Source: Pontiella desulfatans (GTDB lineage: Bacteria > Verrucomicrobiota > Kiritimatiellia > Kiritimatiellales > Pontiellaceae). From it: a stretch of 64,000 bases of DNA. The DNA is taken from NCBI RefSeq assembly GCF_900890425.1, contig NZ_CAAHFG010000003.1, positions 310,001 to 374,000 of the forward strand, given 5' to 3'. How positions within the stretch are numbered: position 1 is the first letter of the stretch; each line of letters begins with the position of its first letter. Shown one piece after another: positions 12,911 to 15,411 of the stretch. Both the position numbers and the translations under genes were made by a program. The notes under the pieces were generated by a model. The model was given only the letters and a program-made list of their open reading frames with translations. It searched no databases and was not told the DNA's origin.

Positions 12911-13030
12911 ATCCGGTGTTTTTTGCGCCGGATCCGAAGCGGGCAAGCTGTTCTTCCAGGGGATGCAAGAACGGTTGCCCAAAAACTAAAACACCGCCAC
13001 ATGGGGTGGGGGAACCAGAAGGGAATACGA
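12911..13030 (+). promoter_or_regulatory. Structured leader RNA, copy 1, before lipoprotein 1
   Basis: Three predicted hairpins precede the first lipoprotein gene: ATCCGG/CCGGAT; a 14-bp stem at 12941-12980 (GGGCAA + CTGTTCTT paired with AAGAACGG + TTGCCC, one bulged G, loop CCAGGGGATGC); and CACC/GGTG around the CCACATGGGG segment. The ribosome site GAAGGG follows. A near-identical block precedes lipoprotein 5, with compensating changes in the stems. It matches no riboswitch class I recognise. The stretch 12759-12910 shows no gene. Confidence 0.5.
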
Positions 13031-13411
13031 ATGAAAATCGAATGGTGGAAATTGGCAAGACGCGGAGCGATGGCGGCGATCGTCGCCTGTTGCGTGGTGG
13101 GTTTGATGGGGTGTGATGATGAGGATACCGGCGAAAGTGCAAGTATCGAGGGTAGCTGGGAAATACGCGACGCTGCGTCGGATGAGGTGATTTCTGTTTT
13201 CACATTCCATGGCGATGGCACTCTTAACACGACTTTTGGGAGGGATGGCACCTATAACGTAGACGGGTTTTCTCTCGTAATTGAAACTCCCGGCGCTGAA
13301 GACACCACAATCTGGCTAAAGGCAACGATTGCCGGAGACAGCCAAAGCATGTCGGGAACCTGGACGGACTCCGTTGGTGATGCCGGTTCTTGGGCTGGTA
13401 GCCGAATGTAA
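13031..13411 (+). CDS. Lipoprotein paralogue 1 of 5 (MKIEWWKL family)
   Basis: 126 residues. The start MKIEWWKLARRGAMAAI is shared by all five genes in this array. A charged, Trp-rich n-region leads to a hydrophobic stretch and the lipobox LMGC, so signal peptidase II should cut before Cys28. The mature protein opens with an acidic run (CDDED, with Asp at +2, the inner-membrane retention residue in E. coli) and continues as a small beta-rich domain with GSW, GDGTL and SGTW turns, like small lipocalin- or META-like folds. The start was chosen by family alignment; frame-open sequence upstream is leader RNA. Function unknown. Confidence 0.82.
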   Translation: MKIEWWKLARRGAMAAIVACCVVGLMGCDDEDTGESASIEGSWEIRDAASDEVISVFTFHGDGTLNTTFGRDGTYNVDGFSLVIETPGAEDTTIWLKATIAGDSQSMSGTWTDSVGDAGSWAGSRM

Positions 13412-13422
13412 TCCACTTAGTT

Positions 13423-13453
13423 AAAGGCGGCCTTTCGGCCGCCTTTCAATTTT
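13423..13453 (+). terminator. Rho-independent terminator after lipoprotein 1
   Basis: Stem AAAGGCGGCC/GGCCGCCTTT with a TTTC loop, followed by CAATTTT. It means the array is not one simple operon, at least past gene 1. Confidence 0.85.
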
Positions 13454-13469
13454 AGATAGGAATATACAC

Positions 13470-13895
13470 ATGAAAATCGATTGGTGGAAATTAGTAAGGC
13501 GCGGAGCCATTTCGGCGATCGCCGCAGGGTGTATTGTCGGTCTGGTTGGCTGTGGCGATGACGACGAGTCGGCAGGTGACGGCAGTGGAGGCGATTGGCC
13601 TAACGAAGTTTGGATAATCACAAAAGAGCGTGGTCATGGAACGCTAGACCAGGTTCGACTGGATCTGGCTGACAGGCATTTCGAAGCCATTGGTGAATTC
13701 TGCAATTGGGGATGTAGCGGATCTGTTGAGTACTGGAGGGTTTCCAACGGTTCCCTTGATGCAAAATTTGGAAATGATACCCAGTCGGCAACACTTGAAG
13801 GAACGGTTTCGGGGAGCTCTTGCTCCGGAACGTATGTGATTTCATATGACTCCGGAGGCTCTTCAACGGGAGAGTTCTACGGAGAGCGCCAATAG
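13470..13895 (+). CDS. Lipoprotein paralogue 2 of 5
   Basis: 141 residues. The N-terminus MKIDWWKLVRRGAISAIAAG is the family cassette, with lipobox LVGC at Cys28 and an acidic GDDDE start to the mature protein. The mature part differs from its neighbours: it has three Cys (EFCNWGC and SSCSG), which could form a disulfide, and the recurring GTVSGSSCSGTY turn near the end. A terminator lies before it, so it probably has its own promoter or depends on read-through. Function unknown. Confidence 0.8.
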   Translation: MKIDWWKLVRRGAISAIAAGCIVGLVGCGDDDESAGDGSGGDWPNEVWIITKERGHGTLDQVRLDLADRHFEAIGEFCNWGCSGSVEYWRVSNGSLDAKFGNDTQSATLEGTVSGSSCSGTYVISYDSGGSSTGEFYGERQ

Positions 13896-13937
13896 ATTGA
13901 ACTGGGATAGAATGGATCAGTAACGAATGGAGTATTT

Positions 13938-14339
13938 ATGAAAATCGAGTGGTGGAAATTGGCACGGCGCGGAGCCATGGCGGCGATTATCGGATGTTTC
14001 GCAATCGGGGTGATCGGGTGCGGGGACGACGACGGGACGACCGAGTCCGACGCCGTCACGTATTATTTCAATTGGTCTGAAACCGATGGCGACGAAGGTG
14101 AAGGAAGCATGACGATCACGGTCGAGGGGACAACGTTTTCCGGGACGCTGGAGGTGACCAAGTTTACCAACGAGGGCGGAACCTATACCTATGGGATTTC
14201 AGGAGATCTGACCGCTACCGGTTTGAGTGGTGTTGATGCGCGGGGCCGGTCGTGGAATGTCGTGATCGATGGGGCTTCGATTTCTGGCTCCTACTATGAT
14301 CCCGATGGAGGCGAGACCGGGACGGTCACCTTGCGTTAA
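13938..14339 (+). CDS. Lipoprotein paralogue 3 of 5
   Basis: 133 residues. Family cassette MKIEWWKLARRGAMAAIIGC, lipobox VIGC (Cys28), acidic GDDDG start. The mature domain is beta-rich and glycine/threonine-rich (VEGTTFSGTL, GDLTATGLSG, IDGASISGSYYDPDG) and ends in a GTVTLR strand. It starts 42 bp after gene 2. The conserved 5' coding sequence and the divergent 3' part suggest duplication followed by selection on the mature domain. Confidence 0.8.
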   Translation: MKIEWWKLARRGAMAAIIGCFAIGVIGCGDDDGTTESDAVTYYFNWSETDGDEGEGSMTITVEGTTFSGTLEVTKFTNEGGTYTYGISGDLTATGLSGVDARGRSWNVVIDGASISGSYYDPDGGETGTVTLR

Positions 14340-14404
14340 TGATTTAAATGATGAAAGTATTGCAGCCAATGTGGCTGCGTTAACCAGGAAAGAAAGGGTG
14401 AAAA

Positions 14405-14824
14405 ATGAAAAACGAATGGTGGAAATTGGCACGGCGAGGGGCCATGGCGGCAATTATTGCGTGTTGCGTAGTGGGTTTGACCGGCTGCGGCGAAGATGAT
14501 GGCGAAGATGCCGATGTTGCTGGAACCTGGGTTGTGGACGGAGCTGGCCTCGAGTTCACGCTTGATGGAAATGGCGGTTTGGCCGGTCGTTGGTTGGATC
14601 CCGAGGAAAAATATCCTGATATTACAGGAAGTTACGAACTTCAGGGAAGTTCGATAACCATTCGTGCGACCCGTATCTACACAGACCAATCATCGGTGGA
14701 GATAACACAGGTAATCACTCTTGAAGGGTCAATTACCGGCAATAGAATCAGCGGAACGTTTAGCGAAACTGAAAACGGGATTGCAACGTATACCAATGTT
14801 CCGTGGAGTGCGACCAAGCAGTAG
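14405..14824 (+). CDS. Lipoprotein paralogue 4 of 5
   Basis: 139 residues. Family cassette MKNEWWKLARRGAMAAIIAC with lipobox LTGC at Cys28 and an acidic GEDDGED start. The mature domain reads as a small beta-barrel: GTWVVDGAGLEFTLDGNGGL near the start and LEGSITGNRISGTFSETENG near the end, the GxIxGxxxSGT motif being shared with genes 1, 2, 3 and 5. A GCAGCC/GGCTGC hairpin at 14362-14378 precedes it. Confidence 0.82.
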   Translation: MKNEWWKLARRGAMAAIIACCVVGLTGCGEDDGEDADVAGTWVVDGAGLEFTLDGNGGLAGRWLDPEEKYPDITGSYELQGSSITIRATRIYTDQSSVEITQVITLEGSITGNRISGTFSETENGIATYTNVPWSATKQ

Positions 14825-14832
14825 ACAGGTTA

Positions 14833-14954
14833 TTTCCGGCACTTATGATGCCGAATCCGAAAACGGGCAGGCTGTTCTTCCAGGGGATGCAAGAACGGTT
14901 GCCCAAAAACTAAAACACCGCCACATGGGGTGGGATAACCAGAAAGGAATACAT
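14833..14954 (+). promoter_or_regulatory. Structured leader RNA, copy 2, before lipoprotein 5
   Basis: A second copy of the leader seen at 12911-13030. The long hairpin (about 14865-14904) is nearly identical, with A-U changed to G-U in the GGGCAG/TTGCCC part, and the loop CCAGGGGATGC and the following AAAAACTAAAACACCGCCAC are unchanged. The first hairpin has changed on both sides (TTCCGGCA/TGCCGAA) but still pairs. Distance from hairpin to start codon is the same in both copies (51 bp). Confidence 0.5.
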
Positions 14955-15356
14955 ATGAAAATCGAATGGTGGAAATTGGCACGGCGCGGAGCCATGGCGG
15001 CAATTATTGCGTGTTGCGTGGTGGGCTTGACGGGGTGTGACGAGGATGATGGTGAAGATGTTAGTGTCGTTGGCGACTGGAACATTGCCGGTGGTGATGA
15101 TCTGGAGGCTTACGATAAGATTACGTTCTATGCAGACAATACCTTGACCATGTTTACCGATGAGGGTGACCGTGATGGTACGTATGAGATTTCAGGATCC
15201 CGAATCGTATTCACCTTTAGCTTCCAGGATGGCCCTGACCCGGTAGATGACTTGGTTTCAGTTACGGGAACCGGAACGGTCGACGGCGATACGATGTCCG
15301 GTCAATTCGTTGACAGTAGCGGCGACTCCGGGGACTGGCAGGGATATAGGCTTTAA
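14955..15356 (+). CDS. Lipoprotein paralogue 5 of 5
   Basis: 133 residues. Family cassette MKIEWWKLARRGAMAAIIAC, lipobox LTGC at Cys28, then Asp at +2 and an acidic DEDDGED run. The mature domain (GDWNIAGGDDL, ITFYADNTLTMFTDEGD, DGTYEISGSRIVFTF, TGTVDGDTMSGQF, GDWQGYRL) is most like that of gene 1, and both carry the leader RNA, so genes 1 and 5 appear to be the closest pair. The start is set by the family alignment and a GAAAGGA ribosome site. Function unknown. Confidence 0.82.
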   Translation: MKIEWWKLARRGAMAAIIACCVVGLTGCDEDDGEDVSVVGDWNIAGGDDLEAYDKITFYADNTLTMFTDEGDRDGTYEISGSRIVFTFSFQDGPDPVDDLVSVTGTGTVDGDTMSGQFVDSSGDSGDWQGYRL

Positions 15357-15379
15357 TTTTTGACCGCTAATTATCCGAT

Positions 15380-15411
15380 GGGGCTACTTCACTGAGGTAG
15401 CCCCATTTTTG
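15380..15411 (+). terminator. Rho-independent terminator of the lipoprotein array
   Basis: Stem GGGGCTAC/GTAGCCCC followed by ATTTTTGTTT, 23 bp after the last lipoprotein stop and before the convergent antiporter gene. Confidence 0.85.

Follow-up and report, generated by a model that had tools for sequence, protein, structure and literature searches.

Lipoprotein families in which a constant leader is joined to variable domains are best known in pathogens, with host immunity as the presumed driver. The closest analogue of the family described here is the Erp (OspE/OspF/Elp) lipoproteins of Borrelia burgdorferi cp32, in which the leader peptide and the first residues of the mature protein are conserved and precede unlike external parts. 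In these proteins a single promoter, leader and localisation sequence has been joined by recombination to many external parts of independent origin (PMC10016077). Acidic residues beside the lipid anchor offer another point of comparison, because the lipoprotein export signal (LES) of the Bacteroidota has an acidic run at +3 to +5 that is enriched among surface lipoproteins. In B. fragilis its consensus is SDDDD right after the lipidated Cys, and a start of this type is sufficient to display a lipoprotein at the surface (PMC5080379). Tandem arrays with conserved blocks also occur among the T7SS immunity paralogues EsaG and TipC (PMC9484751), which the present array resembles in layout.

We analysed a stretch of 64,000 nucleotides of the Pontiella desulfatans genome (the window) that contains five tandem lipoprotein genes at positions 13031–15356, all on the + strand. 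The genes and their associated elements are as follows:

12927–13030, + strand: non-coding leader DNA upstream of g1, with a ribosome-binding region and a GGGCAA...TTGCCC hairpin.
13031–13411, + strand: g1, 126 aa, Cys28, Asp at +2; mature part of the barrel family (translation; leave-one-out profile, E 5e-7).
13420–13455, + strand: terminator-like intrinsic hairpin 3' of g1 (-19.4 kcal/mol, z -4.3).
13470–13895, + strand: g2, 141 aa, Cys28, Gly at +2; the most diverged leader of the five (translation; leave-one-out profile, E 9e-4).
13938–14339, + strand: g3, 133 aa, Cys28, Gly at +2 (translation; leave-one-out profile, E 0.055; model pLDDT 49).
14405–14824, + strand: g4, 139 aa, Cys28, Gly at +2; leader nearly identical to that of g5 (translation; leave-one-out profile, E 4e-9).
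14850–14954, + strand: repeat of the non-coding DNA that precedes g1, here 5' of g5, aligned with 12927–13030.
14955–15356, + strand: g5, 133 aa, Cys28, Asp at +2; mature part a predicted eight-stranded barrel (translation; pLDDT 84.3).
15377–15407, + strand: intrinsic terminator 3' of g5, at the end of the array (z -6.0).

All five translations begin with MK(I/N)(E/D)WWKL(A/V)RRGA and continue through a lipobox at Cys28 into an acidic stretch, as the original prediction had described for these adjacent genes. The lipobox, (L/V/I/M)(T/M/V/I)GC, is preceded in every case by a positively charged start and a hydrophobic stretch, which together are the features of an SPase II substrate. The reported split at +2 is likewise correct: the residue is Asp in g1 and g5 but Gly in the three genes between them. 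G+C content is 51.8% in the array (13031–15356) and 57.3% in the window, a difference for which gene type or foreign origin could account. On the 5' side the array is flanked by genes for a T2SSE (GspE) ATPase and a TPR-MshEN protein, and on the 3' side by a gene for a Na+/H+ exchanger. The GspE/TPR-MshEN pair is conserved in 12 congeners, where both an array gene and the exchanger are absent beside it, and orthologues of the array genes were found in none of the genomes compared.

Judged from sequence, the family appears to follow the Erp principle of a common leader or sorting segment combined with external parts of separate history. Unlike Erp, the present genes are chromosomal, both tandem and dispersed, belong to another phylum and have no known link to a host or prophage; their mature parts are mostly of one barrel class. 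The likeness that we claim is one of working principle, not of homology.

Across the ten pairs of array genes, the 84-base signal region is 69–90% identical in DNA. The description of these leaders as almost unchanged at the DNA level therefore holds for g1, g4 and g5 but not for g2. The similarity extends beyond the signal region in some pairs: the upstream DNA of g1 and g5 is identical at 95 of 103 aligned bases (92%), and the match between g4 and g5 spans +1 to +106. This 103-bp non-coding repeat, with its GGGCAA...TTGCCC hairpin, was found only 5' of g1 and g5. We rejected the upstream hairpin as an RNA element, as it was no more stable than shuffled sequences would allow (z -0.85 and -1.84), and Rfam gave no match. 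A genome-wide search, which had been proposed as a check, did find the leader outside the array, with high similarity at two loci (C3:1208k and C4:287k) and weaker similarity at about 18 others. At the first of these, L008 (= L073, G000 C3:1208k), the leader is 82–89% DNA-identical to that of the array. In a second cluster, L065 (G000 C2:64.5–68.8k), three dissimilar mature parts carry a leader type of their own, M.K.TRRLMTTLL.GASLAL.GCG.DD, and a leader similar to it lies at G000 C3:266320.

A profile built from 25 members matched 40 places in the source genome (8.66 Mb, six contigs), and about 38 genes can be read as short lipoproteins with a median length of 138 aa. They form eight or more clusters, each with two to five genes, and also occur as single genes. 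The proposal of an exported-lipoprotein family that combines a constant leader with variable mature parts was right, and the family is larger than was apparent from the window. In a set of 28 genomes from this genus or family, a single match was present in three (G024:C55, G013:C102 and G003:C398) and none in the others; these single members are possible outgroups for dating the expansion. No genome besides the source genome exceeds four members among 289 genomes of the phylum, in a count that scored up to 14 candidates per genome and in which only the source genome reached 14. Among the genomes compared, the expansion is therefore confined to the source genome.

The mature parts of g1–g5 share 24–39% pairwise identity, and their shuffle Z scores are highest for g1/g5 (13.6) and lowest, at about 0, for g3/g4. 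In this respect they are, as had been stated, hardly alike, but the five-way alignment retains eight invariant columns, Gly-xxx-Ser-Gly among them, and the g1/g5 similarity is strong. Leave-one-out profiles grouped g1, g2, g4, g5 and 16 further members at E < 0.001, with g3 borderline; approximately ten members, L008 included (E 20), failed to match the common mature profile. The structure predictions were of uneven quality. For g5 the model is a confident up-and-down barrel of eight strands, and a calycin-like barrel was found for this protein only; the g3 model was of low confidence and was discarded. Avidins and designed barrels (Z 11–12.6 for these two groups), together with fatty-acid-binding proteins, are nearest to the g5 model in shape, and because Foldseek significance was modest, we take this to indicate fold class only and claim no relationship. 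By the leave-one-out profiles, a single barrel-like domain is common to many members, among them g1, g4 and g5 and, less strongly, g2.

Eight-stranded barrels are also found in lipoproteins of the Lipocalin_4 (PF13648) and DUF5640 (PF18692) families. No array gene reached any Pfam cut-off, the best Lipocalin_4 score being that of g5 (17.6 bits against a gathering cut-off of 22.4); three dispersed paralogues passed this cut-off (23.8–32.9 bits). Seven members show weak similarity over the leader and early mature domain to TIGR03066 (Gem_osc_para_1), whose name marks it as a paralogous family in Gemmata, another PVC bacterium, and the array genes scored 18.9–20.3 bits against its curated cut-off of 93.25. 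A search of solved structures with the mature profile returned FimG matches only, at chance level, and these were set aside. The mature part of L008 is, in our reading, reminiscent of an Ig-like repeat (FSEP...DLAGNP); Pfam gave nothing and solved structures nothing convincing, a search of 28 relatives turned up no homologue of it, and this domain was left unnamed. Judged by fold class, binding of small ligands or glycans at the cell envelope is the most likely role of the barrels; immunity or inhibitor roles are less likely, and the receptor and adhesin roles raised in the original prediction are conjectural.

Leader and mature part have separate histories in these genes. In the closest pair, C1a_1902 and C1b_6085 of locus L064 (G000 C1:836.5–844.8k), DNA identity is 96.7% over -31 to +89 and the sequences are dissimilar past that point. 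Leader dS is 0.07 in this pair and mature synonymous sites are saturated (27% mature identity, Z 1.8), mature dS being inflated by poor alignment in less similar pairs. The mature alignment of g1 and g5 was taken as reliable (39% identity at the Z of 13.6), and here same-residue codons are identical in 71% of cases in the leader versus 29% in the mature part (Fisher p 0.002); for g4 and g5 the values are 68% versus 26% (p 0.003). Similarity in the closer pairs stops near the Cys codon and acidic linker (+73 to +106). Saturated mature synonymous sites next to young leader and upstream DNA indicate recent copying of the leader among paralogues that are themselves old, and the presence of the array leader on the non-matching L008 domain supports exchange of the module with unrelated sequence. 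The leader also follows location: 12 of 24 clustered genes have their nearest leader within their own cluster (expected, 1.6), and the observed within-cluster leader similarity was matched by none of 2000 shuffles of the cluster labels. For mature parts the nearest relative lies within the cluster in 4 of 24 genes, which 182 of 2000 shuffles matched and which is no clear departure, and mean mature similarity is a little higher inside clusters than between them. Such a pattern of leaders by cluster is expected if clusters were duplicated and their 5' ends then homogenized. The family is thus mosaic, with leaders that are specific to the locus. An IS1595-type transposase gene separates the two L064 genes (near 1902 and about 6142), which lie roughly 4.2 kb from each other, and this element may have helped the leader to move.

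Constant signals on variable mature parts in tandem layout are also the picture expected of diversifying selection, in which phages, predators or competitors would drive fast change in the mature parts of recent tandem duplicates and constraint would keep the signal peptide constant. The slightly raised mature similarity inside clusters fits this account, and it indicates that duplication with divergence occurred too. Positive selection, however, raises dN and not dS, and fast protein evolution alone therefore fails to explain saturated mature synonymous sites beside leader synonymous sites and upstream non-coding DNA that are not saturated; nor would it produce the abrupt loss of similarity just beyond +89 in the closest pair. 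We regard diversifying selection as an unlikely source of the pattern, and the fast-diverging mature domains of the original prediction are better described as old domains behind young leaders. A quite improbable alternative is that old paralogues have undergone ordinary drift and that their 5' ends stay alike solely because the signal peptide, the start region and the regulatory DNA upstream are constrained. The distant pairs are the evidence in its favour, because leader codons are no more alike than mature codons in g5/L009 and g1/L008, and this disappearance of the excess implies that signal-peptide constraint accounts for part of the pattern. Constraint of this kind is difficult to reconcile with close pairs that are near-identical at synonymous and upstream non-coding positions, or with leaders that vary between clusters, which shows that no single sequence is required.

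The remaining alternative concerns function and is compatible with leader exchange by recombination, namely that the array encodes periplasmic or surface immunity proteins against the polymorphic toxins of neighbouring bacteria. The proteins are tandem, non-identical, small and acidic, and esaG and tipC arrays are known to recombine through their conserved blocks (PMC9484751). Those arrays differ from the present one in that no toxin partner or toxin-like domain occurs in the adjacent genes examined here; the search of defence profiles gave a single weak match (g4, E 0.016) and the family is dispersed over its many clusters, so that we consider an immunity array very improbable.

We favour, with a probability of roughly 0.7, an explanation in which a 5' module spreads among paralogues by recombination, while the mature parts, mostly lipocalin/avidin-like barrels, keep old and separate histories and the products are exported and lipid-anchored. 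Each gene would be a mosaic of this module and a mature domain, often a small eight-stranded barrel. The module would comprise the ribosome-binding site, in some cases along with roughly 100 bp of DNA that precedes it, the lipobox-bearing signal peptide and the acidic linker. The recombination that we infer between paralogues could be gene conversion, unequal exchange or the capture of a new mature part, and exchange would end in or near the Asp-codon-rich linker, a putative recombination seam. Copying would take place inside clusters and sometimes to distant loci, with the mature parts retaining their older histories. Export and lipid anchoring of the products are most likely, and the acidic linker may serve to sort them to the outer membrane or the cell surface.

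Several observations bear on this last suggestion. At least three of seven residues are acidic at the start of 32 of 37 family members, in a count for which a floor of two acidic residues was used in placing the Cys. The background consisted of 18 non-family lipoproteins from 854 kb of the window's contig, of which three have at least three acidic residues at +2 to +8 and 15 have two or fewer. WWKLxRRGA occurs in none of the 18 listed, so the leader is not, as the original prediction had recognized it might be, common to all lipoproteins of the organism. As in LES lipoproteins, the acidic run appears to follow the Cys directly; the family differs from these in phylum and in its +2 residue, which is mostly Gly (22 of 37 members; typical start, C-G-D-D-D) and not Ser. 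The DNA pattern for G-C-x-D-D-D occurs 12 times in the source genome, is absent from the reversed control and occurs 0–2 times per relative, a result that is no more than suggestive. By analogy, an acidic export signal like that of the Bacteroidota could plausibly bring the proteins to the surface. LolA is encoded in the genome, and a LolC/E-like protein gave a match under its cut-off in the profile search. It is doubtful that the Asp/Gly difference at +2 predicts different membranes, because more acidic residues follow +2 in all five array proteins.

We also put forward, tentatively and as possible rather than probable, a chromosome-wide leader shuffling in which a spreading 5' cassette of RBS, signal peptide and acidic LES-like sorting signal would make small domains, whether related or not, into surface lipoproteins that are sorted together, so that the surface proteome is readily re-assorted. 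With this family one could ask if surface sorting can be transferred by a short acidic linker beyond the Bacteroidota. A copy-rich chromosomal version of the leader-plus-variable-domain arrangement in a probably free-living marine anaerobe would show that this pattern can arise without a host. Leader shuffling, if true, would mean a modular surface proteome outside host-associated pathogens, in a probably free-living PVC bacterium.
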